Below, in pieces: positions 3,888 to 24,434 of a stretch of 33,971 bases of DNA; within the stretch, counting starts at the first letter, position 1, and every line of letters begins with the position of its first letter. A model generated the notes under the pieces. It did not search any database, was not told the DNA's origin, and saw only the letters and a list, made by a program, of their open reading frames with translations. Both the position numbers and the translations under genes were made by a program. This DNA is from a virus: the IMG/VR virus record IMGVR_UViG_3300033153_006332, positions 1-33,971 of that record, one strand, 5' to 3'.

Positions 3888-4778
3888 ATGTATAAATATT
3901 TTCTCTGTCCTGATGGGCAGACAGTAACAATAGAACAATGTATCAATCAATGTAGAATGAGTAATAGATGCATGTCATTACCTACCCTGCGTTTTATGGC
4001 AGAACAAAGAATATGGTCCGGTAAGCCGAGTACAACACAGTTGTTGAAAGGTACCAGAGAAGCATATCTTCATATAATACACGAAGACCTAATACTTGAC
4101 CCACAGAAGGCAGCTTTCCGAATCTTGGGAACGAAAAGCCATGACGTTCTTGAACAATATTCCTCGAGTGAGTTGTCTGAGATACGTCTTGAAGATGATT
4201 TATCCACAGGCGAATTTGACTGTTATGATGCAGAGAACGAAACCCTGTACGATTACAAGACCTGGGGAAGCTACAAGGTCATGATGGCCACGGGGATAGA
4301 AATGGTTGATGTCGAAACAGGTGGAGTCTTTAAGACGGGAGCTAGGGCAGGACAGCCAAAAACACGCAAAGAACCGCAATTAACAGGTAGGGTTAACATG
4401 TACGAGTCTGTACTTCAAATGAACGACTATAGAATGAAAATTGAAGCCACAGGGTTCGGTGTTAAAAAAATGTATATTGAAGCAGTCGTTCGTGACGGCG
4501 GAACAATAGCAGCTACATCACGAGGCATAATGAAAAATATTTATCTCATACCCGTTCCTATTCTTGAAGACATGAAGGTTCATCAATATTTCAAACAAAA
4601 ATCCCTTGCATTACTGGGAGCATTGAGAAACAAAGTAGTTCCACAAAAATGTACTAGTGAGGAATGTTGGGATGGGCGTAAATGTGAGAAGTATTGTGAT
4701 GTATATAAACATTGCAATAGTCATTCTCCAACAACGGAAAGGGGTATTAGTATGAGTGATAAAAAATTGTGTCAATGA
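3888..4778 (+). CDS. PD-(D/E)XK nuclease, Cas4/RecB-like, with cysteine clusters
   Basis: A 296-residue protein behind GAGGGAGGAAAACA. It has a His at 85 (GTKSHDVLEQY), an Asp at 111 (STGEFDCYD) and D122-x-K124 (LYDYKTWG), the order of catalytic residues in RecB/Cas4-type PD-(D/E)XK nucleases. Four N-terminal cysteines (residues 7, 18, 22, 28) and a C-terminal cluster (CTSEECWDGRKC, EKYC, KHC) could bind an iron-sulphur cluster or zinc, as in Cas4 and AddB. These enzymes resect DNA ends. Its position before ERF and SSB suggests that it makes single strands for phage recombination. No helicase is fused to it. The domain is confident; the metal cluster and exact role are inferred. Confidence 0.75.
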   Translation: MYKYFLCPDGQTVTIEQCINQCRMSNRCMSLPTLRFMAEQRIWSGKPSTTQLLKGTREAYLHIIHEDLILDPQKAAFRILGTKSHDVLEQYSSSELSEIRLEDDLSTGEFDCYDAENETLYDYKTWGSYKVMMATGIEMVDVETGGVFKTGARAGQPKTRKEPQLTGRVNMYESVLQMNDYRMKIEATGFGVKKMYIEAVVRDGGTIAATSRGIMKNIYLIPVPILEDMKVHQYFKQKSLALLGALRNKVVPQKCTSEECWDGRKCEKYCDVYKHCNSHSPTTERGISMSDKKLCQ

Positions 4779-4933
4779 AAAAAGAAGTCGTTAAAACATT
4801 AGCTTATCAGCATGCTCCAGAAACTACAAAATCGCACTTTGGAGAATGTGATGGAGAAGAATGTGCTTGGCATTATGACGGTTCATGTGCAGTACAGTTT
4901 CTTGTTTGCTTATCAAAGGAGGTACAACCATAA
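4775..4933 (+). CDS. Small Cys/His-containing phage protein
   Basis: A 52-residue protein whose ATG overlaps the nuclease stop by four bases (ATGA), so it is probably co-translated. The centre reads HFGECDGEECAWHYDGSC, with Cys and His spaced in a way that could hold one zinc ion. The N-terminal KKEVVKTLAYQHAPETTKSH is polar and the end VQFLVCLSKEVQP is more hydrophobic. It has no known family to me. Coupling to the nuclease hints at a partner or regulatory role, which is inference only. Confidence 0.5.
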   Translation: MKKEVVKTLAYQHAPETTKSHFGECDGEECAWHYDGSCAVQFLVCLSKEVQP

Positions 4934-4976
4934 TAAATTAAAATATAAGTTAGCCAATAACGGTAGAAATGGGGTA

Positions 4977-5216
4977 GTGAGGTTGAGTAAAATTGATGAT
5001 TACAAAAAAGTAAAATTTATTTGCGATACAGTAGAGGAAAAACTTAATTGTGCAATGGTTTTTGACAAGGGCGGCAAAGCAGATACAAGAAACGATAAGC
5101 ATGTATTACGTATAAGCTATACTGGCAAGCGTACTAATGGTTATTGTCAAGATGCAATCATGCAATTACACGCATCTTATGGTATTATGGTTCTTCTTCG
5201 GGATATTCTGCTATGA
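4977..5216 (+). CDS. Hypothetical protein, start uncertain
   Basis: About 77-79 residues. The convincing part begins RLSKIDDYKKVKFICDTVEE and continues through MVFDKGGKAD, VLRISYTGKR and a C-terminal helix. There is no ATG near the front. GTG at 4977 or TTG at 4983 are the candidates, and GGGG at 4971-4974 is spaced better for the TTG. The frame stays open further upstream to 4812, but that part reads unlike a phage protein and overlaps the gene at 4775. The end overlaps the next start by four bases. Function unknown. Confidence 0.5.
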   Translation: MRLSKIDDYKKVKFICDTVEEKLNCAMVFDKGGKADTRNDKHVLRISYTGKRTNGYCQDAIMQLHASYGIMVLLRDILL

Positions 5217-5368
5217 ACGAAGATGTAGCAAAATACATGGAAAAGGCAATTAACAAATACATTCCTCATATCGCAAAAAAGGCTATTGAGCTTGCGAAAA
5301 TAGACATTGAAACCGCACGTAAGGCAGCCGAAAATGAGGCAAAAGAAGTATTAGAAATCACTGGATAA
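5213..5368 (+). CDS. Small helical hypothetical protein
   Basis: Starts at the ATG overlapping the previous stop (ATGA), giving 51 residues. The whole protein is a predicted amphipathic helix: KYMEKAINKYIPHIAKKAIE, then IDIETARKAAENEAKEVLEI. It has equal acidic and basic content and no cysteine or membrane span. It is the last gene before the structured RNA at 5374. Function is unknown. Such helical mini-proteins are often interaction partners of a neighbouring enzyme, here possibly the nuclease. Confidence 0.5.
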   Translation: MNEDVAKYMEKAINKYIPHIAKKAIELAKIDIETARKAAENEAKEVLEITG

Positions 5369-5373
5369 GTGAC

Positions 5374-5441
5374 AATAACGGGGCTTTCCTTCGCACGAAT
5401 AGCTGGGGAAACCCGAAGCCGGCAAGACCGTCCCCGTTATT
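5374..5441 (+). ncRNA. Compact GC-rich structured RNA in the leader of the ERF gene
   Basis: AATAACGGGG (5374-5383) and CCCCGTTATT (5432-5441) form a perfect 10-bp closing stem around about 48 bases. Inside are GGG-GAAA-CCC, CTTCG with a distant CGAAG partner, and the palindrome GCCGGC, so several alternative pairings exist (for example TTTCC with GGAAA). No U-run follows, so it is not a simple terminator. It lies about 30 bases before the ribosome binding site (AAGGAGG) of the ERF gene. Much more GC-rich than its surroundings. I could not match it to a riboswitch class I know. It may be a cis regulator or a stable small RNA. Confidence 0.5.
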
Positions 5442-5470
5442 AAAAATTTGAATAAGGAGGAATTGAAGTA

Positions 5471-6124
5471 ATGGGTCTATATGAGAAAATTTACAACGTA
5501 ATGAATGAGTCCACAAGTCTTGAAAAGAATAAACGAGTAGGTACCGGAGTTAACAGTTATAATGCCATAGGTGAAGCCGAAGTGCTTAATATGCTGAAGC
5601 CATTGTTTAAAAAGCATAAGTTAATTGTATTCCCCATTGATGGGGATATTTCAGAGAAGAGCACAGTTTATGATGCTACTTATAAAGATGAAACTACTAC
5701 CAAAACAAGGAACGTCACACAGATAAAAGTTAAATTTAAAATTGTTGATGTTGAAACAGGTGAATCAGAAATACTTATCGGTTTTGGTAATGGTGCTGAC
5801 TCACAAGATAAAGGGAGTGGTAAGGCTTTTACCTATGCTTATAAAACCATGTTAAGTAAGACATTTATGTTATTCAGTGGAGAAGACACGGATAATGAGC
5901 ATAGTGACGATATTGGTAAAAATAAAAACAAGCAACAGAACGTTTTCAAACTATCCGAAGCACAGATTAAAAGGGCATTTGCTATAGCTATAAGCAAAGA
6001 CATTGATGCAGAAATTTTAAAAAATCGCATAAAAGAAGTATACAAGAAGGATATTAAGGATTTGACTAAAGTTGAATACGACAGCATGTGCAGTAAGATG
6101 AAAGCAAAGAAGGTGAGTACATGA
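5471..6124 (+). CDS. erf: ERF-family single-strand annealing recombinase
   Basis: A 217-residue protein behind AAGGAGGAATTGAAGTA. The N-terminal domain has NSYNAIGEAEVLNMLKPLFK and a central GSGKAFTYAYKTMLSKTFML followed by SGEDTDN, both hallmarks of ERF proteins (P22 Erf relatives). These annealers pair complementary single strands during phage recombination and genome circularisation. The C-terminal third (KLSEAQIKRAFAIAISKDID onwards) is a helical tail often seen in this family. The stop overlaps the SSB start by four bases. With the nuclease at 3888 and SSB it forms a recombination module. Confidence 0.85.
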   Translation: MGLYEKIYNVMNESTSLEKNKRVGTGVNSYNAIGEAEVLNMLKPLFKKHKLIVFPIDGDISEKSTVYDATYKDETTTKTRNVTQIKVKFKIVDVETGESEILIGFGNGADSQDKGSGKAFTYAYKTMLSKTFMLFSGEDTDNEHSDDIGKNKNKQQNVFKLSEAQIKRAFAIAISKDIDAEILKNRIKEVYKKDIKDLTKVEYDSMCSKMKAKKVST

Positions 6125-6495
6125 ACAAGGTGATTTTAATGGGAAGGTTAACTAAAGACACTGAATTACGGCACACAACAACAAACAAAGCCGTATGTAG
6201 TTTTACATTAGCTGTAGACAGGCGGTTCCAGAAGGATAAGACCGACTTCATCCCGGTAGTGGCGTGGAACAAAGCAGCCGAATTTGCTAGCAAGTATTTT
6301 TGTAAAGGCATGAAAATAGTTGTAGTCGGCAGCATCCAGACACAGACATATGAGAGTGATAACGGCAAGAAGTATATTACAGAGGTTGTTATTGATGAAT
6401 TGTATTTTGCGGAAAGCAAGAGACATACGGAACAAGTGGATAAGCAAGAAGGAAGTTATCAGATGCCGCCTGATGATGATTGTTTTCCTTTCTAA
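6121..6495 (+). CDS. ssb: Single-stranded DNA-binding protein
   Basis: A 124-residue SSB coupled to the ERF gene by an ATGA overlap. The OB fold begins MNKVILMGRLTKDTELR and continues with FTLAVDRRF, FIPVVAWNKAAEFASKYF, GMKIVVVGSIQTQTYE and YITEVVIDELYF, all in the usual order. A short linker leads to the acidic tip DDDCFPF, the peptide that binds partner proteins; most SSBs end in DDDIPF, so the Cys is a small variation. It coats single strands made in replication and recombination. Length is short for a cellular SSB (about 170) and normal for a phage. Confidence 0.95.
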   Translation: MNKVILMGRLTKDTELRHTTTNKAVCSFTLAVDRRFQKDKTDFIPVVAWNKAAEFASKYFCKGMKIVVVGSIQTQTYESDNGKKYITEVVIDELYFAESKRHTEQVDKQEGSYQMPPDDDCFPF

Positions 6496-7416: not shown

Positions 7417-7512
7417 ATGTTAGAGAAAAATCGAATTTACAATATGGACTGTTTGGAAGGTTTAAAACAATTAGATGACAATTCAATAAATTGTTGTGTA
7501 ACTTCTCCTCCG
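7417..7512 (+). pseudogene. N-terminal stub of a beta-class DNA methyltransferase
   Basis: ATG at 7417 behind GGGGAGGTTGGC starts LEKNRIYNMDCLEGLKQL and reaches CCVTSPP, the catalytic motif IV of N4-cytosine/N6-adenine methyltransferases. The homology stops there: the next base is the last base of an antisense LAGLIDADG gene. The rest of the methyltransferase is missing from this copy. A second, diverged version of the same 32 residues starts at 8098 and leads into the remaining domain. So the endonuclease sits precisely at the conserved SPP codons. Either it was inserted here or recombination between two paralogous genes removed the 3' part. Confidence 0.7.
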
Positions 7513-8013
7513 TTATTTAATACCAACATGATTAAGTTGTTTGCAAGCATTATAGTATTCGTCACAAATAGCTATATATTCATCAGAATAAGAAAGGTTT
7601 GGTACTTTACGAATAGTACCATGAGAATTAGGAAAATTTCTATACCCTGTAATTTTAGTACGGTGTTTAACGGAATCGGATTGTATTATACGAAAATTAA
7701 GAACAGTTTCAGCAGAAGTTTTTTTAACTTTAAGATACGGAAGTATTGTTTTGAGTATGATTTCAGCCGAGTTATTCGCTGCTTGAAACCAGTACAGTGG
7801 GCGCCCTTTTGGGGAAGAAGGTTTTTCTTTATAATAGTTGCCACCGAGTGTTTCGGTAATAAACTTAATGGCTTGTTCATCAACCATGCGGATTTGAATT
7901 CTGGCATGATAAGAAGGATTGACACAATCTTTTCTAATTGTAGTTTTTTTAATACCAATATATCCTTCTCCATCAATAAGACCTGCAATATAAGCAATAT
8001 CAGTTCTTTTCAT
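7513..8013 (-). CDS. LAGLIDADG homing endonuclease, antisense within the methyltransferase locus
   Basis: A 166-residue protein on the opposite strand to all its neighbours, with its own ribosome binding site (GGAGATATGTTATT before ATG). Residues 9-17 read IAGLIDGEG, the LAGLIDADG helix with its acidic catalytic residue, followed by YIGIKK and a second block (YHARIQIRMVDEQAIKFITE). With one LAGLIDADG motif it would act as a homodimer. Such enzymes cut an allele lacking the gene so that repair copies it in. Its 3' end abuts the SPP codons of the methyltransferase stub at 7512. No intron or intein splice signals are clear, so it appears free-standing. Confidence 0.85.
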   Translation of the reverse strand: MKRTDIAYIAGLIDGEGYIGIKKTTIRKDCVNPSYHARIQIRMVDEQAIKFITETLGGNYYKEKPSSPKGRPLYWFQAANNSAEIILKTILPYLKVKKTSAETVLNFRIIQSDSVKHRTKITGYRNFPNSHGTIRKVPNLSYSDEYIAICDEYYNACKQLNHVGIK

Positions 8014-8082
8014 AATAACATATCTCCAATTATGTGGTGTGTGTAATTAATATAATTATATCAACGAAAGGTGGTGATGTCA

Positions 8083-9062
8083 ATGGGTACAGGAGAAATG
8101 ATTAATAAAATAATCTGTGGCGATGCATTAGAATTATTAAAGCAATTAGATAATAGTTCGGTAAATTGTTGTGTCACATCTCCACCCTATTGAATTGGGG
8201 GCTCAGAGATTATGGTGTTGATGGACAATTAGGACTCGAAAGAACACCAGGCGAATATGTCGCAAAATTAATTGAAATATTTCGCGAAGTTAAAAGAGTT
8301 TTACGTGATGATGGCACTTTATGGCTTAATTTAGGTGATAGTTATTCAAGTGTGCATACAGGAGGGCATAAATCAAAAAAAGCTACTGTGGGAAATAATA
8401 AAGAAGGCATCCAAGAGATAAAACAATCAAAAGCAAAACCTGAATCCTATGGATTAAAAACTAAAGACTTGGTTGGCATACCATGGTCAGTAGCATTTGC
8501 TTTACGTGCTGATGGATGGTACTTAAGACAAGATATTATATGGCACAAACCAAACCCTATGCCCGAGAGCGTGACTGACAGGTGTACAAAAGCACATGAA
8601 TACATATTTTTATTGAGTAAATCTGCTAAATATTATTATGACAATGAAGCCATAAAGGAACCAAGTAAATGGGGAGGTGACCCAAGGGAAGGTTATGGTA
8701 GATTGCATTATAGAGAAAAGAGAGAAGGACAGAAAGGAACCGGACAAGAAAACTTCGTACAAATAACAGATAAAAGAAATAAACGTTCAGTTTGGACAGT
8801 AAACACTAAGCCGTTTAAGGAATCTCACTTCGCCACATTTCCCCCTGACTTAATTTATCCCTGCATAAAAGCTGGATGCCCTAAAAGTGGAATAGTGCTT
8901 GACCCATTTATGGGAGCTGGTACAACGGCTATTGTAGTATATGACAATGTCTGTAATTATATAGGCTTTGAACTGAATCCGGAATACTGCAAGATAGCTG
9001 AACAGCGTATAGCCACATATACATCACAAATGCGTATTGAAGAAATAGGCGTGCCTTTATGA
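8083..9062 (+). pseudogene. Beta-class DNA methyltransferase broken by a 5-base insertion at its catalytic motif
   Basis: ATG at 8083 (AGGTGGTG before it) or 8098 opens INKIICGDALELLKQLDNSS to CVTSPPY, then stops at TGA 8191. Five bases later the other frame continues WGLRDYGVDGQLGLE through LWLNLGDSY, DIIWHKPNP and the C-terminal AdoMet motif DPFMGAGTT to 9062. Without the five bases the product would be about 325 residues, normal for this class (motif IV first, motif I last; N4-cytosine or N6-adenine). The insertion makes ATTG-A-ATTG, like a 4-base duplication around one base. It lies at the same codon where the LAGLIDADG gene interrupts the stub at 7417. As written, active enzyme cannot be made without a frame change. 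Confidence 0.75.
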
Positions 9063-15011: not shown

Positions 15012-15191
15012 CTACTCTACTCCTATAATTTTAAGAATAGTGCTGGTGAAAATTATCAATGTTGCAATACAAAGAAATACAAAAAAAACTGCTTCATCCC
15101 ATGGGAACAAATAATCCTTCCTTATGAGAAATAATATTGCCCATGCCACAATATCAATTATCCATACAATTGCTACAACCTTCCATTCCAT
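15012..15191 (-). CDS. Small two-span membrane protein
   Basis: ATG at 15191 on the minus strand has GGAGGTATATT before it, so this start is chosen over an upstream in-frame one. The 59-residue protein has two membrane spans, VVAIVWIIDIVAWAILFLI and AVFFVFLCIATLIIFTSTIL, joined by RKDYLFPWDE. Both ends would lie on the same side of the membrane. It overlaps the end of the next gene upstream by 38 bases. Function unknown; the size is also compatible with a holin-like or exclusion protein. Confidence 0.65.
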   Translation of the reverse strand: MEWKVVAIVWIIDIVAWAILFLIRKDYLFPWDEAVFFVFLCIATLIIFTSTILKIIGVE

Positions 15192-15384
15192 AATATACCT
15201 CCTTTTTAAATTTTTCATACAATTTTTTCATTCCGTCATTTTCAAATATTTGCCAGACATCCAATTCGCGATGTCCTTTTATTTTGCCACTGCATCTTTC
15301 ACATACTGAAAGATGGGCAAGTCTTTTATACCTATCATTATCATTAGTTTTTAAGTGACAATTGATGACTTCACTATTGTCCAT
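15154..15384 (-). CDS. Small Cys-rich hypothetical protein
   Basis: ATG at 15384 on the minus strand behind GGAGGGGGTAAAAATA gives 76 residues; the frame is open further upstream through the hairpin cluster but without a good start. It contains LAHLSVCERCSGKIKGHREL and ends GMEGCSNCMDN, two CxxC pairs that may hold zinc between them. The middle is a helix (GMKKLYEKFKKEVYY). Not a family I know. It precedes the membrane protein with overlapping codons, so the pair is probably co-translated. Confidence 0.6.
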   Translation of the reverse strand: MDNSEVINCHLKTNDNDRYKRLAHLSVCERCSGKIKGHRELDVWQIFENDGMKKLYEKFKKEVYYGMEGCSNCMDN

Positions 15385-15405
15385 TATTTTTACCCCCTCC
15401 ATGCT

Positions 15406-15460
15406 ACCAGACTTTGGACTGGTTCCGGGTATCCCGGAGCGCATTAGCGGGTTACCCCGC
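15406..15460. other. Three tandem hairpins in the gap between leftward genes
   Basis: Read on the plus strand: ACCAG/CTGGT (15406-15423, 8-base loop), TCCGGG/CCCGGA (15424-15438, 3-base loop) and GCGGG/CCCGC (15447-15460, 4-base loop). There is no U-run in either direction. It is much more GC-rich than the flanking genes. Similar hairpin pairs fill the gaps at 15872 and 16645, so this seems a feature of the block. Confidence 0.5.
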
Positions 15461-15469
15461 CCATCTGCT

Positions 15470-15826
15470 TTATTGGAACATTTTTTTGTTAAAATCAATC
15501 CTGCTTTTTTCATACATTTTCTTTTCGTCCTCTGTGAATGGCACTATTTCTGTGAATGATTCTCTATCTGTTGTAATGCATTCCTTACCAAAGATGTTAT
15601 GAGTTTTCTTAAACATATAGAAAGGGTTTTTGACCCTTCTGCAATGCATTCTTCCTGTACTGTAGCCGCTTAATAGTCTCTGTATTGTGTCTGAAATTAC
15701 CCAGTTAGCAGAATGTCCGAACGCTATCCAAACAATTTCATGTTTTGATAGTTCAATTGCTTTCCAGTGCGTAAGGGGATACCACGACTGTCCCCCTTCT
15801 GGTCTGACGTTATCATTTATTAGCAT
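15470..15826 (-). CDS. Hypothetical phage protein
   Basis: A 118-residue protein on the minus strand; GGGGAGGTATTTATATT precedes ATG. It starts LINDNVRPEGGQSWYPLTHW, has a middle basic phrase (RMHCRRVKNPFYMFKKTHNI) and an acidic helical end (TEDEKKMYEKSRIDFNKK). It has mixed strands and helices, no cysteine pairs and no membrane span. I do not recognise it. Flanked on both sides by hairpin-filled gaps rather than overlapping its neighbours, unlike most genes in this phage. Confidence 0.6.
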   Translation of the reverse strand: MLINDNVRPEGGQSWYPLTHWKAIELSKHEIVWIAFGHSANWVISDTIQRLLSGYSTGRMHCRRVKNPFYMFKKTHNIFGKECITTDRESFTEIVPFTEDEKKMYEKSRIDFNKKMFQ

Positions 15827-15871
15827 AATATAAATACCTCCCCAATATAATATTTAGCCTGCCATCCTCAG

Positions 15872-15911
15872 CACCGGGCGGCTATGTCCGGTGGACGGGG
15901 AAGCCCCCCGT
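15872..15911. other. Two GC-rich hairpins between leftward genes
   Basis: CACCGG/CCGGTG (15872-15893, 10-base loop) and ACGGGG/CCCCGT (15895-15911, 5-base loop) lie side by side in the 90-base gap. Neither has a following U-run on the minus strand. They may protect or punctuate the polycistronic leftward mRNA. Function is not shown. Confidence 0.5.
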
Positions 15912-15916
15912 TTCGG

Positions 15917-16129
15917 CTATACTTTCTTTTTATAGCTGATGTAAAACAATTCACCATCCTTCGATACCATGTCAGGTCTAGGAGGATGATCATCATACCC
16001 CACATCTTTTATACTTGACTTATAGTTTTTTATGCAATTTTCTATTTCCCCGAAGTGGTATTCTTCAATGCCGTGTTCAGCATTAAAATTATTACCTTCC
16101 AAGTCTGTAAGCCAAAATCTCCATTTCAT
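15917..16129 (-). CDS. Small hypothetical protein
   Basis: A 70-residue protein on the minus strand whose ATG overlaps the stop of the gene at 16126-16428 by four bases (coupled). It starts KWRFWLTDLEGNNFNAEHG and ends DGELFYISYKKKV, probably a small mixed fold. No motif is recognised. Its coupling to the preceding gene suggests that they work together. Confidence 0.55.
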   Translation of the reverse strand: MKWRFWLTDLEGNNFNAEHGIEEYHFGEIENCIKNYKSSIKDVGYDDHPPRPDMVSKDGELFYISYKKKV

Positions 16130-16428
16130 GCCAATTCCCTTCTTTCTATTATTTTTATAGGATGTGCAATGATTCCATCACCACAATCCCATTCATCCGC
16201 GTACTCACCCTCAAAAACAACAATTTCGCCGCCTTGGGCTTTCCACTCGCTTAAAGGCATTACGCCTTCAAGATATTCAATAAGGGATTCAAAACTTTCA
16301 CAACAACAGATACCACCTGTACTGTTTTCTCCAACACCGGCTTCGCAGTGCCCACCGTTGAAGCTTTTATGTTGTTGCATTTTTTCTAATGTTATTCCCT
16401 TGTCTGCATGGTATCTGTAGAATGTCAT
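16126..16428 (-). CDS. Hypothetical phage protein with conserved Cys/Gly core
   Basis: A 100-residue minus-strand protein with GAGGGAGGAACTTAA before ATG. It begins TFYRYHADKGITLEKMQQHK, then GHCEAGVGENSTGGICCCES, and ends with an IVVFEGEYADEW strand pair. I have seen proteins starting FYRY and holding GHCE...GGICC and EVVVFEGEY in phages and clostridia, without assigned function. The four closely spaced cysteines and His might bind metal or form an active site. Acidic, soluble, no signal peptide. Confidence 0.6.
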   Translation of the reverse strand: MTFYRYHADKGITLEKMQQHKSFNGGHCEAGVGENSTGGICCCESFESLIEYLEGVMPLSEWKAQGGEIVVFEGEYADEWDCGDGIIAHPIKIIERRELA

Positions 16429-16600: not shown

Positions 16601-16644
16601 AATCCTACCCCCATAACATATATTACCTTTTCAGGTTGAGCGGA

Positions 16645-16679
16645 GGGGACTTTCATCCCCCGTCCGGCTTTCACGGACG
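16645..16679. other. Two GC-rich hairpins with matching loops
   Basis: GGGGA/TCCCC (16645-16660, loop CTTTCA) and CGTCCG/CGGACG (16661-16679, loop GCTTTCA) are directly adjacent and share the loop CTTTCA. They lie in the gap between two leftward genes. No U-run follows on the minus strand. Third example of such paired hairpins in this block. Confidence 0.5.
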
Positions 16680-16696
16680 CGTCCCTTGCCCTGCTA

Positions 16697-17534: not shown

Positions 17535-17553
17535 TGCTTTGCAGGTGATAAGT

Positions 17554-18132
17554 ATGGATGTATCCTTAGCGGTAGAGATTAGACAACCTATAGATTGCGG
17601 TATGGTAGAGACAACCCAGGGCAGGCCGGAAAAGTATAGTACTCATGTGGAACCGTATCTAACGCAGATACAGCAATGGTTACAGGAGGGTATGACAGAA
17701 TATTCCATTGCAGAGCAATTAGGGATTGCAAGGCAAACTTATTATGAATATAAGAAAAAATACTCTGACTTGCAAGACGTCCATACACGGGCGCGCGAAG
17801 AAAAAAACTGCCTTGTGATGCATAGAATGTACTCAAAGGCAGTAGGAGAGCGGATTACACTCGACAAAAAGAAGGTAACAGGTAAGGGAGATGTTATAGA
17901 CTACACAGAAGACCAGTACCTGCCGCCTGATGTCAACGCTGCAGACCTCTATTTACGCAACAATAACCCAAACTACAAGGCAGCGAAGGACATGGGAAAT
18001 ATGACACTCAACCAGTATAATTTCCAATTACCTGATGTGCAAGCAAATATCACAAAATTACAGGAGCGCTTAAAATACCTTAAAAGCCTTGATATCACTG
18101 ATGTTGAGGTCATTGAAGATGAGCCAAAGTAG
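17554..18132 (+). CDS. terS: Terminase small subunit
   Basis: ATG at 17554 behind AGGTGATAAGT gives 192 residues; an in-frame TTG at 17539 is less likely. It contains a helix-turn-helix, GMTEYSIAEQLGIARQTYYE, preceded by a GRPEKY phrase typical of clostridial TerS proteins, then a central region for oligomerisation (PPDVNAADLYLRNNNPNYKA) and a C-terminal coiled helix (KLQERLKYLKSL). TerS binds the packaging start site as a ring and hands DNA to TerL. It is the first gene of the late operon; TerL follows after three small genes, which is more distant than usual. Confidence 0.8.
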   Translation: MDVSLAVEIRQPIDCGMVETTQGRPEKYSTHVEPYLTQIQQWLQEGMTEYSIAEQLGIARQTYYEYKKKYSDLQDVHTRAREEKNCLVMHRMYSKAVGERITLDKKKVTGKGDVIDYTEDQYLPPDVNAADLYLRNNNPNYKAAKDMGNMTLNQYNFQLPDVQANITKLQERLKYLKSLDITDVEVIEDEPK

Positions 18133-19093: not shown

Positions 19094-22000
19094 ATGAATG
19101 AGAAGGATGTCTTAGAAGAGATTATACGGCTTGAGAAGGAACTGGCAGAGGAAAAGTATAAAGAGCTCTTTATTAAGGGCAAGGATAATTATGCTGATTA
19201 TGTAAGATTGACACATGCGTATGATCCTAAATTTAATATGGCACCTTTTCAGGTTTATATATGCGATTGTATAGATAAACTGCTTAAGAACGAATTACTG
19301 AATGATGCAGGTGACCCAGTGGAGGGCATAACAATATCATTACCTACACAACATGGAAAAGCTATAGAAGATAATGTTCCTGTTTTGACCAATAAAGGAT
19401 TTAAGTGTCATGGAGAATTGGAAATAGGAGATTGCGTATACAACCAAAAAGGTGAACAAGTCAGAATTATGGCAACACAAGAAAGTTATATGCATGAATG
19501 TATGAAAATTGTTTTAGATACAAGAGAAGAAATAATTTGTTCTAAAGAACATGAATGGATAATTGAAACTAATAGGGACAGGAAAATAAACGGCAAGCGG
19601 CTTAAAAGACAAACTGAAATAGTTGAGGCACAAAATATATTTAATGGGTATCATGCAAGAAGTCCTGCTATAAGGATATGTGAACATTTAAAAAATAACG
19701 ATATTGATTTGCCGATACCTCCATATTTACTTGGTTTGTGGCTTGGAGATTGTTGTAAAAAATCTACAGAAATTTCCTCTTCAAAAAATGATTGCAAGGA
19801 GATTGCGGAATACATTGAAGATTCCCCAGTAAAAATATTAGCTGACAACGGAGAGAACAAAAGAATTATAGTTGGTGTAACAGATGGCAGCGTGGGAAGT
19901 AATAAGTTTAGAAATGGGTTGAAAAAATTTAATTTAATAAACAATAAACACATACCTGAAATATATTTTGTTTCTAGTTATAACCAAAGGTTAGAATTAT
20001 TCAATGGTTTAATGGATTCAGACGGTACCGTAGATAAGCATAGGGGAATATGTGAGTTTTGTAATGCAAATAAAAATCTTGCTGAACAGTTTAATGTTTT
20101 GGCAAGAAGTTTAGGATATAAATCAAATATAACCGAGGGTCGTGCTACGCTGTATGGTAGATATATATCGCCTAAATATCGCGTAGTTTTTGTTGCTAAT
20201 AAAAATGATAGAGTATTTAAGCTAAAAAGAAAACAGGAAAGAGTAAACAATAAGAAACCAGTAGACAGAATAGATAAGAAAAGATATTTTATTAAAAGCG
20301 TTACTCAATGTGGAGAGTATCTTGTAAAATGCATAAGTGTAGAAGGTGGAGTGTATTTAGTCGGCACTGGGCTTATTCCAACACATAATTCAAGATGTAT
20401 TACTGAGACTTTACCCTCGTATTTTTTGGGGCATGAACCTTACGGACATGTGATAGAAGCTTCGTATAACGAGGACTTTGCGGAGAAGTTTGGACGTAGG
20501 AATAAAGAAAAGATAATGGAATTCGGAAAGGCTTTGTTCGGTATAGAGATATCTAAGGATAAAACATCTTCTGTTGAATTTGAGCTAGCACGGACAAAGG
20601 GGGGGATGTTAAGTAAGGGACTCACTGGTGGTATAAGTGGGGCACCTGCGGACTTATGTTTTCCAGCTGGTACAATAATAGCAACTGAAAACGGCGGAAT
20701 AGAGATTTCAGTCCTTCTAGCAATGGGAAATATGCCCCGTATCTTGACATATGACCATTCTTGCGATAAAATAGTATTAAAGAATATTATCGCAAAGAGA
20801 ACAAGATATGAAAAAGAATTCATTGTTGTCAAAACGGCAAACGGAAGGGAAATCAAATCAACAAGAGACCACAGATATTATACAGAAGCCAAGGGCTACA
20901 CGCAGGCACAATTACTTGGAAGGAATGACATTCTCTATTCCCTTGACAAAAAAGACATGTCCACAATGCGGAAAGTCGAAGTACAGAAAAAGCAAGATAT
21001 GTCGAGCGTGTTACAACCGGACACCGTTTGCGGAATTAAAAGCGTTAGGGGAGAAAGCGTCAAAGTCTATGACATTCAAGTTGAGGGAACGCACAACTTC
21101 TTTGCTAATGGAATACTCGTCCACAACTGTATAGTAGATGACCCATATAAGAATTTCGCCGATGCTGATAGTCCTTCATGGTCAGCCGAAGTTATAGAGA
21201 ACTGGAAAAGTGTTTTAAGGATGAGAGCCTCTTCCATATGTAAATTTGTAGTTATCCATACAAGATGGAATGAGGATACCGACCTAATAGGATATCTGTT
21301 GAAAGTTGAGCCTGAAAAATGGTTTGAAATAAAATTTCCTTTAGAATGTGAAGTTGATAATGAACCCGTAACCGGGAGAAACATAGGAGATGCTTTGTTA
21401 CCTGAGTCCGGTAAAAACAATGAATGGCTCAAGGAATTTAAAAAATCTTTCATGAATGACCCATTAGAAGGTGGACTAAGGTCATGGAATGCCCTGTGTC
21501 AGCAAAACCCAACGACAAAGGGAGGTAACATGATCAAAAAAGCTTACTGGCAGAAATACGATCTATCACTTGCAATGCAAAAAGGGAAAATGTTTAATGA
21601 AATGATTCAATCATGGGACTGCTCTTTTAAAGACACTGATGGCACAGACTTTGTGGCCGGAGGGGTGTGGGGAAGGATAGGGGCACAATTCTATCTTATG
21701 GACCTAGATTATGAGAGAAAAGACATAGTTAAAACTATGGCTGATATAAAGAAGATGACCAGAAAGTGGCCAAAGACATTGGCGAAGTATATAGAGGACA
21801 AAGCTAACGGACCTGCGGTAATTCAAATGATGAGAATGACTGTACCTGGACTTATTCCAGTTCCTGCAATCAAAAGCAAGGCTGAGAGAGTTAATGCTGT
21901 GTTACCTTTATGGGAAGCCATATGGGCCAATGAAGTTATAGAACAATGTGCCAAGTTTAGACCTGAAAAGAAAGTTCAAAAAGATGACATAGTAGACATT

Positions 22001-22153
22001 TGCAGTATGGCATTAGGACAGATGATGTATGCCTTTATTCCGGCAGAACAGACTAAACGTGATATAGGATATGCATCACCAGAGGAATTGAAAGATATGG
22101 GAGTAATAAGTATGGATGCAAGAAGACCGAGAAAAACAGTCGTGAATTGGTAG
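19094..22153 (+). CDS. terL: Terminase large subunit containing two inteins
   Basis: A 1019-codon frame; GGATGATAAACT precedes ATG. Host segments are residues 1-89, 433-521 and 679-1019; joined they make 519 residues, a normal TerL. Walker A is SLPTQHGK|SR, interrupted after Lys89. Walker B is APADL|CIVDDP, interrupted before the Cys. Downstream is the RNaseH-like nuclease: QSWDCSFKDTDGTDF, YIEDKANG, and DDIVDICSMAL with the metal-binding acids. TerL is the ATP-driven motor that threads DNA into the capsid and cuts it. Neither the ATPase sites nor the full protein exist until both inteins are removed, so packaging depends on splicing. The following genes are portal and head genes. Confidence 0.95.
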   Translation: MNEKDVLEEIIRLEKELAEEKYKELFIKGKDNYADYVRLTHAYDPKFNMAPFQVYICDCIDKLLKNELLNDAGDPVEGITISLPTQHGKAIEDNVPVLTNKGFKCHGELEIGDCVYNQKGEQVRIMATQESYMHECMKIVLDTREEIICSKEHEWIIETNRDRKINGKRLKRQTEIVEAQNIFNGYHARSPAIRICEHLKNNDIDLPIPPYLLGLWLGDCCKKSTEISSSKNDCKEIAEYIEDSPVKILADNGENKRIIVGVTDGSVGSNKFRNGLKKFNLINNKHIPEIYFVSSYNQRLELFNGLMDSDGTVDKHRGICEFCNANKNLAEQFNVLARSLGYKSNITEGRATLYGRYISPKYRVVFVANKNDRVFKLKRKQERVNNKKPVDRIDKKRYFIKSVTQCGEYLVKCISVEGGVYLVGTGLIPTHNSRCITETLPSYFLGHEPYGHVIEASYNEDFAEKFGRRNKEKIMEFGKALFGIEISKDKTSSVEFELARTKGGMLSKGLTGGISGAPADLCFPAGTIIATENGGIEISVLLAMGNMPRILTYDHSCDKIVLKNIIAKRTRYEKEFIVVKTANGREIKSTRDHRYYTEAKGYTQAQLLGRNDILYSLDKKDMSTMRKVEVQKKQDMSSVLQPDTVCGIKSVRGESVKVYDIQVEGTHNFFANGILVHNCIVDDPYKNFADADSPSWSAEVIENWKSVLRMRASSICKFVVIHTRWNEDTDLIGYLLKVEPEKWFEIKFPLECEVDNEPVTGRNIGDALLPESGKNNEWLKEFKKSFMNDPLEGGLRSWNALCQQNPTTKGGNMIKKAYWQKYDLSLAMQKGKMFNEMIQSWDCSFKDTDGTDFVAGGVWGRIGAQFYLMDLDYERKDIVKTMADIKKMTRKWPKTLAKYIEDKANGPAVIQMMRMTVPGLIPVPAIKSKAERVNAVLPLWEAIWANEVIEQCAKFRPEKKVQKDDIVDICSMALGQMMYAFIPAEQTKRDIGYASPEELKDMGVISMDARRPRKTVVNW
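19361..20389 (+). mobile_element. Intein 1 in TerL Walker A: class 3-type, with LAGLIDADG endonuclease
   Basis: 343 residues inserted between Lys89 and the Ser of Walker A. It starts with Ala (AIEDNVPVLTNKG), so it lacks the usual Cys/Ser1 nucleophile. Block B is CSKEHEW (His64, Trp66). Block F begins with Cys324 (KCISVEGGVYL) and the end is GLIPTHN with Thr341 and Asn343, followed by Ser+1. Trp in B, Cys in F and Thr in G is the signature of class 3 inteins, in which the block F Cys attacks the N-terminal junction. The middle holds a homing endonuclease with two LAGLIDADG-like helices, LLGLWLGDC and LFNGLMDSDG. Boundaries are exact to the codon because the host motif is well known. Splicing is inferred. 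Confidence 0.9.
20657..21127 (+). mobile_element. Intein 2 in TerL Walker B: class 1 mini-intein
   Basis: 157 residues starting Cys (CFPAGTIIATENGG) and ending FFANGILVHN before Cys+1. Block B is GREIKSTRDHRYY (Thr and His), block F is VKVYDIQVEGTHNFF, and block G is ILVHN. It interrupts the Walker B motif between ADL and CIVDDP. No endonuclease motif is present in its frame. The linker before block F (residues about 95-120) is Lys/Met/Gln rich and low in structure. The DNA of that linker encodes a four-cysteine zinc finger in another frame. The size is that of other mini-inteins. All splicing residues are present, so it should be active. Confidence 0.93.
20943..21020 (+). pseudogene. Out-of-frame zinc-finger sequence inside intein 2 (ghost of an endonuclease accessory domain)
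   Basis: In the +1 frame relative to TerL the DNA reads KKTCPQCGKSKYRKSKIC then RACYNRTPF. Cys codons at 20958, 20967, 21000 and 21009 give C-x2-C-x10-C-x2-C, the spacing of zinc knuckles that accompany HNH and other homing endonucleases. The shift into this frame falls at a run of six A (20948-20953). The frame stops at 21132 and could not splice, so I do not call it a working gene. It looks like leftover coding sequence now translated in the wrong frame as intein linker. Confidence 0.6.
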
Positions 22154-22568: not shown

Positions 22569-24434
22569 ATGTATGAAGAAGAACAAGATATACGTACTTC
22601 TGTAATGGACGATGACCAAATGGAAAGAGCAGACAAATATGTTGACTGGTTTAGAAGTTCATGGACAGATAAGGAAAATAGAGGATTATTTGATAAGTGG
22701 GAATTGATGGAGTCATATTGGGAGGGTGAAGTTAATCTTCCCGAGAATGATGAAGATCCGGGAAGTAATACTAATATCATAAACGCCAATATCGAAGGTC
22801 AGACGGCATTGATGATTGAAAAAAACATTTCTATAACGGTGGATCCTATTGAACCATCGGATGTGCCGTTTTGTGAGTATGCCAGAGTAATAGGTCAGTT
22901 CATACTAGATAAAAACATTATGAAGCGCAAACTTGATATTGCTTCAAGAAGATACAAGAAATTCGGGGAAGCAATATTTTCAGTATTTTTTGATGTAGAC
23001 ATGTTGGAAGGTATGGGCTTGCCGTGGATTAAATCATGGAATCCTGCCTATATATTTTATGACCCAAATATAACAGATGTGTATGAGATAAATGACGGAC
23101 GGTTTTTGATAGCCGTATGCAATAAGTCTCTGCACTGGGCTGAAAATATGTTTGGGAAGGATAAAGCTAAAGCTATTATGCCGTCATATCATCCCATGGA
23201 AACAGAATGGATGTATGGAGAAGATGAAGGTGAACACGATGAACTTACTAGAGATAATTACTTACACATGTTTGTGTTTACGAAAGAAAAAAAGAAGATA
23301 CGACTTGAACAAATATCCGGAGATGGGGTTTTGTTATGGGATAGCAAAGATCATCCAGAATTAAAATTTCCTAAAGGGAGATACCCGTTCTTTGTAGCTC
23401 CTGATTTACCAAGAGAAGGAACTACATACGCTAAAGGTGGCGGTGAACTTCTCTTAAATACGCAAGATACAATAGATGACCTTGATGACCAGATTAGAAT
23501 AAACGCAAGACTTACAGGAAATATACAGAAAGTAATAGGAACAAAATCAGGTATTGATGTGGAAAAATGGACAAATGAACCCGGACTAAACATTCCGGCA
23601 ATGGATGTAGACGAATGGGCTGTGGTTAAACCTCCAGATATGCCTAATTATATTTTAGAGAGAAGGAAAGAAGCCTTATATAGTGAAAGATCTATTATAT
23701 CAAGATTCTCCGATCAAATGACTGGTATCCAGCAAAAAGGAGTAGATACAGCAACCGAGGCTTTAGCCTTACATCAATCAGGATTGGCAGGTATTGACCG
23801 TGATAAGATGGTTATTCAGGAGACCTTAAGCGAAGCTTTAATTTATGCTCTTGAACTGGCTTCAGAGAATTGGACTGAAGAACAAGCATTCAGGATAACG
23901 AACAAAGAAAGTGAGTTCTTGTGGTTTAAGGCAAGTAACTTAAAAAAGATTCCAAAACTTACACCTTCAGACTCAGTATTTAGGAGAAAATGGACAAAGA
24001 CAAATCCTGACAAACCAGTTCCTGAATACATGATTGCCACGGATACCAAAGGTAACCCATTGACAAAAAGTGCAGCGTTTGATTTTAAAGTATCTATAGG
24101 TGCCGGAATGCCTAATAATAAGGCGTTTAGGTACACTGTAACTAAAGAAGCTTTTGCAAGTGGTGCAATGGACATAAGAGAGTACCGACAGAGACTTAGA
24201 GATTATGACGTGCTTCCAGAAAATTCTTGGGAACAAGAGCAAGCTATGATAGCCAAACTCGAACAACAGAAAATGATGCAGTCAATGCCGAAGGGTGGAA
24301 GTCCAAATGGACTTGATGTAAATAGACCTAATGCAGATATAGAAGGGTTATCACCTTCTGGAAGTCCTGCTGCATTAAATAACTTAGGAGGGGATTTACA
24401 AAATGCCGGTATTGCTAACCAAAAATCAGCATGA
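22569..24434 (+). CDS. Portal protein
   Basis: A 621-residue protein behind AAAAAGAGGTGACTAACA. Portal features by order: acidic N-terminus, ADKYVDWFRSSWTDKENRGL, WELMESYWEGEVNLPEND, then the stem/wing region YDPNITDVYEIND, a crown-side helix (LERRKEALYSERSIISRFSD then MTGIQQKGVDTATEALALHQ, the conserved Q-G-x-T-A-T phrase of portals) and a Gly/Pro/Asn-rich C-terminus. Twelve copies form the vertex through which TerL packages DNA. Position right after TerL and before scaffold and capsid is standard. It resembles P22-like portals in size; I cannot assign a close relative. Confidence 0.85.
   Translation: MYEEEQDIRTSVMDDDQMERADKYVDWFRSSWTDKENRGLFDKWELMESYWEGEVNLPENDEDPGSNTNIINANIEGQTALMIEKNISITVDPIEPSDVPFCEYARVIGQFILDKNIMKRKLDIASRRYKKFGEAIFSVFFDVDMLEGMGLPWIKSWNPAYIFYDPNITDVYEINDGRFLIAVCNKSLHWAENMFGKDKAKAIMPSYHPMETEWMYGEDEGEHDELTRDNYLHMFVFTKEKKKIRLEQISGDGVLLWDSKDHPELKFPKGRYPFFVAPDLPREGTTYAKGGGELLLNTQDTIDDLDDQIRINARLTGNIQKVIGTKSGIDVEKWTNEPGLNIPAMDVDEWAVVKPPDMPNYILERRKEALYSERSIISRFSDQMTGIQQKGVDTATEALALHQSGLAGIDRDKMVIQETLSEALIYALELASENWTEEQAFRITNKESEFLWFKASNLKKIPKLTPSDSVFRRKWTKTNPDKPVPEYMIATDTKGNPLTKSAAFDFKVSIGAGMPNNKAFRYTVTKEAFASGAMDIREYRQRLRDYDVLPENSWEQEQAMIAKLEQQKMMQSMPKGGSPNGLDVNRPNADIEGLSPSGSPAALNNLGGDLQNAGIANQKSA

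Follow-up and report, generated by a model that had tools for sequence, protein, structure and literature searches.

A phage terminase gene with two inteins of different predicted splicing classes, one of them a putative remnant of an intein family with an out-of-frame HNH endonuclease

The sequence analyzed here (the window) was the complete 33,971-base IMG/VR virus record IMGVR_UViG_3300033153_006332, and the locus under study was its terL gene (19094..22153, plus strand), a 1019-codon open frame encoding the precursor of a 519-amino-acid (aa) large terminase subunit (TerL) interrupted by two inteins. The product was recognized as a large terminase subunit from its Walker A and Walker B ATPase motifs, its RNase H-like nuclease, and its neighbors, namely a small terminase subunit gene (phrog_309; 17539-18132) upstream and a portal-like gene (22569-24434) downstream; Pfam, NCBIfam, and PHROGs were in agreement on TerL, the inteins, and the gene neighborhood. 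Pfam detected Terminase_6C (38.7 bits) and Intein_splicing (57.4 bits; cut-off 35.8) in the product, the NCBIfam TerL nuclease model psiM2_ORF9 scored 38.7 bits, slightly below its cut-off of 41.65, and the C-terminal host part had no match in viral_contigs. Excision of both inteins at their boundaries (GK↓A...HN↓S and L↓C...HN↓C; arrows mark junctions) left 519 aa, which, together with the TerL domain matches, bore out the joined host protein of 519 residues proposed in the first-pass annotation of this DNA.

The two insertion sites were compared with those of related TerLs. A human-gut TerL without inteins (L006) was 39% identical to the joined host protein over 458 residues and read uninterrupted through both junctions (PPQHGK↓STFITET and ANL↓IIIDDP), confirming the proposal that the two inserts are inteins and interrupt conserved ATPase motifs. 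Each site was also found occupied separately: the TerL of Gordonia phage YungMoney had the Walker A intein only and an empty Walker B site, as did that of L180 (see below), and the TerL of Gordonia phage Clown had the Walker B intein only.

Intein 2 (20657..21127, plus strand; 157 aa) was of class 1 and lay in Walker B (ADL↓CIVDDP), its insertion point being one residue into the hydrophobic strand of this motif, not at the acidic pair. It displayed the class 1 residues Cys1, TxxH in block B, a terminal His-Asn (LVHN), and Cys+1, and it exceeded the cut-offs of the NCBIfam models intein_Nterm (33.1 bits) and intein_Cterm (49.7 bits). Matches to intein 2 in NatCom were Hint domains of toxin-like proteins, not TerL, and were set aside. 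Inteinless TerLs had other residues at the position of Cys+1 (21128-21130), e.g., I in L006, which suggests that intein 2 perhaps brought its own splicing-competent flank. The +1 frame over intein 2 contained a 108-codon open reading frame (ORF) (20808-21134, plus strand) that stopped shortly beyond the intein end and is a candidate relic of a nested HNH gene: no HNH core was found in this frame of intein 2, and it encoded a single zinc knuckle of the form C-x2-C-x10-C-x2-C (TCPQCGKSKYRKSKICRACYN; 20958..21011, plus strand; Pfam DZR_2, 0.0014). In the nearest relatives, this knuckle was matched by the N-terminal one of the nested HNH protein, and L007, L022, L026, L033, L035, L039, and L047 had a knuckle of this type at about this offset.

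In textbook inteins, the endonuclease is encoded in frame. The linker of the Clown intein, the closest named relative, was filler-like in the TerL frame and encoded several zinc fingers and an HNH nuclease in the +1 frame. The Clown +1 protein, used as a query, led to the TerL gene of Synechococcus phage S-EIVl, out of frame again, and a profile scan of IMG/VR added dozens more Walker B TerL loci with nested HNH. A zinc-finger/HNH endonuclease was thereby located in the +1 frame of the Walker B intein linker of 35 relatives; across all complete TerL Walker B inteins with this HNH, the nuclease was always in the +1 frame and never in the TerL frame. Nested +1 HNH genes were also present on three bacterial contigs (Streptomyces, Bacteroidetes, and Armatimonadetes). 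The window intein 2 fitted the class 1 site of this Walker B family, x↓C-hhDDP. L014 and L015, considered as further members, turned out to be other inteins or Hint proteins and were rejected. The first Cys of the nested protein was located at 268-331 nucleotides (nt) of the intein in 34 of the 35 loci and at 388 in one, and the intein and HNH distances were correlated (Mantel r 0.52), which is consistent with a single origin and joint inheritance of intein and HNH.

The overlap of the two frames was then quantified. The 36 distinct loci, two of which were near-identical, had been chosen for a single open frame spanning both intein halves; they had no TerL-frame stop in the nested HNH region, compared to 354-400 expected from the HNH proteins and the observed codon use, and the third frame of the same loci had 344 stops. 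L097 was the only complete TerL Walker B locus noticed to be lost by the open-frame rule; in this locus (4069-6490, Clostridia bacterium UC5.1-1D2), the intein halves were in different frames on either side of a frame-shifted HNH region, and it is best regarded as a decayed or misassembled relative of the Walker B nested-HNH inteins. In a codon alignment built on the +1 proteins, identity averaged 35% when the DNA was read as HNH, compared to 19% when it was read as TerL and 20% for the third frame, which served as the control. The linker therefore appears to be conserved in its HNH reading, whereas in its TerL reading it is merely devoid of stops. The model of the +1 protein had an HNH fold (predicted local distance difference test [pLDDT] 83), matching HNH nucleases with probability 1.00 but with E-values >0.01. 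Shine-Dalgarno sequences before candidate HNH starts were stronger than in the control (p 2e-4), weakly supporting internal initiation. The +1 stop was found at -83 to +88 nt relative to the intein end, and the last 45 codons contained 19 stops compared to 36 expected, a deficit too weak to claim that blocks F and G also encode a functional tail of the HNH.

Various stages of decay toward mini-inteins were found among the relatives: (i) L021 and L066, two near-identical phages with 96-100% identity across aligned parts, differed in that exactly 510 bp (170 codons, comprising the nested HNH core) were missing in L021, with the TerL frame intact; (ii) L050 had a mini or partial form with the HNH core retained; (iii) L029 had an HNH with a +1 stop and an intact TerL frame; and (iv) L019, L020, L021, and L017 contained shorter scraps of the +1 gene. 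Mini-inteins were dispersed over the Hint tree (10 changes), and the window intein 2 probably belongs among these decay forms.

Intein 2 is accordingly read, from its site, frame, and relatives, as a deletion derivative of a +1-HNH intein. It might instead be an ordinary mini-intein in which an in-frame endonuclease was never present or was lost, the +1 knuckle being an accident of codon choice. Mini-inteins are numerous and the window +1 frame is devoid of the HNH core, and among recodings of the frame-0 protein the knuckle pattern arose in 4%; set against this, the +1 stretch never stayed open for 107-108 codons when intein 2 was recoded synonymously 20,000 times, the knuckle is shared in type and offset with seven near carriers, an in-frame HNH occurred in none of the TerL Walker B inteins found, and the sister pair L021/L066 shows that minis arise from loss of the +1 gene. 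We regard the ordinary mini-intein as unlikely. The first-pass annotation had called the insert a Cys1/Cys+1 mini-intein in Walker B; the class 1 residues and the site stood, but the plain label conceals the probable origin of intein 2, because its ancestors would have carried an HNH endonuclease out of frame.

Intein 1 (19361..20389, plus strand; 343 aa) was of class 3 type and interrupted Walker A between Lys and Ser (LPTQHGK↓S). Class 3 inteins are defined by features including a Trp/Cys/Thr (WCT) triplet (PMC5050341). Intein 1 displayed this triplet together with a non-nucleophile at residue 1, namely Ala1 (19361..19363; A or Q in relatives): Trp66 in block B (motif HEW; 19556..19558), Cys324 in block F (motif VKCISV; 20330..20332), which is the predicted first nucleophile, and Thr341 in block G (motif PTHN; 20381..20383), followed by Asn343 (20387-20389) and Ser+1 (20390-20392), all on the plus strand. 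W66, C324, T341, H342, and N343 were invariant across six relatives with A or Q at residue 1, so the set of class 3 residues named in the first-pass annotation held up; the class of each of the two inteins was assigned from residues. A LAGLIDADG core (LLGLWLGD ... LFNGLMDSDG; 19727..20026, plus strand; Pfam LAGLIDADG_3, 1.5e-7) was in the TerL frame. The best sequence match among solved structures was the DnaB intein 6bs8, and tblastn recovered related inteins in the TerL of many phages. The intein of the nearest relative, L180, was 60% identical to intein 1, compared to only 23% for TerL, and at the DNA level L180 resembled the window essentially in intein 1 only. Because of these two identities, intein 1 looks mobile, which fits the earlier suggestion of selfish elements at essential codons.

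The possibility was also weighed that intein 1 is degenerate, i.e., class 3-like but non-splicing, in a phage that is defective or uses another TerL. Such a state would agree with Ala at residue 1, with GDC in place of GDG in endonuclease block C, and with the provenance of the record as a metagenome contig, but it sits poorly with the invariance of W66, C324, T341, H342, and N343 among the relatives with A or Q at residue 1 and with the higher conservation of the intein than of its host, which points to an intein that was active until recently; we consider it improbable. Still less credible is a reading in which the inserts with HNH are not inteins with an overlapping gene but RNA introns, or fusions coupled by frameshifting: although phage group I introns often hold zinc-finger HNH genes and the nested HNH lacks an obvious strong start, the TerL frame is open through the inserts with both intein halves and C1/HN/C+1 intact, the mini versions retain the full Hint domain, and an RNA intron was rejected since Rfam found no intron, group I included, in the window or in ten nested-HNH relatives.

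The reading preferred here is that terL hosts two independent selfish elements and that intein 2 is an HNH-stripped descendant of the +1-nested-HNH intein family, to which we assign a probability of roughly 0.8. It draws on features observed directly: the insertions and empty sites, the residue signatures, the frames and their absent stops, the +1 conservation, and the 510-bp deletion of the sister pair. Several points weigh against it: (i) the knuckle pattern by itself arose in the 4% of recodings mentioned above and had a hidden Markov model score of only 7 bits, and the relic reading depends on position, open frame, and kinship; (ii) the loci of the stop test were selected for an open frame, and the alignment behind the identities favors the HNH frame; (iii) the Shine-Dalgarno signal is modest, and support in the Hint tree is weak in places; and (iv) the structure model of intein 1 was poor (pLDDT 56) and unusable.

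In the mechanism inferred for this two-intein gene, the TerL precursor would be translated across the filler linker, and each intein would splice out by its own chemistry: in intein 1, Cys324 would start splicing, a branched intermediate to Ser+1 would form, and Asn343 would cyclize, while in intein 2 the order would be Cys1, Cys+1, and Asn157. The in-frame LAGLIDADG domain of intein 1 would cut intein-free P-loop alleles. As the host frame is stop-free, a single mRNA could yield both the TerL precursor and a free HNH endonuclease; in full carriers, the separate HNH would be made from the same mRNA, probably by internal initiation, and this nuclease would spread the intein. The window would represent the outcome of an internal loss of the HNH core with the TerL frame kept, after which a single zinc knuckle in +1 and a mini-intein capable only of splicing would remain. 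If true, mobility is uncoupled from splicing, with the two tied to an essential gene.

A second family was composed mostly of Terminase_3-type TerLs, in which HNH_3 was encoded in the +2 frame of class 1 inteins located close to the C-terminal nuclease site (L071, L081, L084, L096, L116, L152, L163, and L178); in L088, the intein was within the ATPase domain. One named case was Tetrasphaera phage TJE1. Eight loci of this family had no TerL-frame stop, compared to 15.4 expected. In Vibrio phage 1.238.A (L179; 263-3991), also of the +2 family, an N-terminal intein half was followed by an out-of-frame HNH, several TerL-frame stops, and a C-terminal half, the C-terminal intein part being annotated as a separate Hint protein; this locus may be the nested arrangement in split or fractured form. 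We lean toward the view that HNH overprinted on class 1 inteins, in the +1 or +2 frame and separately translated, is a general and long-lived terminase architecture with at least two origins from different HNH families, which decays to mini-inteins through losses that preserve the host frame and may itself be an intermediate in the passage toward split inteins or away from them.

The combination of a class 3 intein (WCT, GK↓S/T) and a class 1 intein (Walker B) in one TerL was also identified in L008, L011, L018, and L035, the L008 pair grouping with L009 and L010 and the L011 pair with L060. Judged from its residues, the combination recurs in at least four TerLs besides that of the window, and the window pair is thus not singular. 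The first-pass annotation knew of no described terminase with such a pair; a literature search, mostly without subscription journals, likewise found no description of one, but the arrangement itself is recurrent. With at least five TerLs at hand, the pair offers a ready case for the order of two splicing chemistries in one precursor.

Two other regions of the window contained unusual features. Three distinct self-cleaving ribozymes, Twister-P5 (15407-15469), Hammerhead type II (15853-15918), and Twister-sister (16627-16696), all on the minus strand and above the Rfam gathering scores, lay within 1.3 kb and alternated with short minus-strand ORFs that had no Pfam match (15154-15513, 15470-15826, and 16126-16428). 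An N6/N4 DNA methylase gene (7417-9062) was split at its TSPP motif by an insert of ~0.5 kb that contained an ORF for a LAGLIDADG_1 endonuclease (7513-8013, minus strand, opposite to the methylase); the N-terminal methylase part (to CCVTSPP) was repeated at about 8081-8190 and followed by a frame break, and no Rfam intron was found at this interruption.

No description of the broad nested-HNH family, the frame statistics, the deletion pair, or the +2 family was found in the literature; the precedents for the nested HNH were a single remark on a brucellaphage and the inteinless insertion of ShiLan. The brucellaphage TerL was noted for a putative intein-encoded HNH out of frame (PMC4422536), and its kinship to the window family is putative; the available part of that account covers neither intein domains and frames nor relatives or tests of selection. 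Out-of-frame HNH genes are on record in phage methylases without intein (Arsenault et al. 2025, PMC11855218): the ShiLan domain shared with the present family an out-of-frame zinc-finger HNH and a stop-free host frame, but it had a methylase host, used the third frame, and remained as an unspliced insert that is neither intein nor intron according to its authors. The mycobacteriophage TerL1 inteins (Kelley et al. 2016, PMC5050341) are of classes 1 and 3, and several spliced and cut experimentally; they shared with the window the location in the ATPase domain, at the P-loop Lys/Thr (TerL1-a) and in Walker B (TerL1-e), but TerL1-e was grouped with class 3 whereas the window Walker B intein was of class 1, and the available part of that account, unlike the present case, contains neither two inteins per TerL nor an out-of-frame endonuclease. 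A two-intein TerL, with inteins in the ATPase and nuclease domains, is already published for cyanophage Mic1 (PMC7156551); like the window, Mic1 had one large intein with an endonuclease and one small intein, but its inteins were at ATPase and nuclease sites and drawn Cys-to-Asn, whereas those of the window were of classes 3 and 1 in Walker A and Walker B.

A large phage family with an out-of-frame endonuclease would mean that two unrelated proteins share DNA over hundreds of codons of an essential gene; it would provide a natural system for overlapping genes, would explain the origin of some mini-inteins, and has a possible link to split inteins. Such nested nucleases escape annotation, just the terminase being annotated at these loci of Clown, S-EIVl, and TJE1. 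A preprint by Gosselin on actinobacteriophage inteins, reportedly with 'Non-Canonical Architecture' in its title, may overlap the nested-gene result. Fractured genes with split inteins and with endonuclease genes between the halves were reportedly described by Dassa and coworkers in 2009; in such genes the endonuclease is an individual frame between the intein halves, as it is here, but in the present family the intein itself is unsplit.

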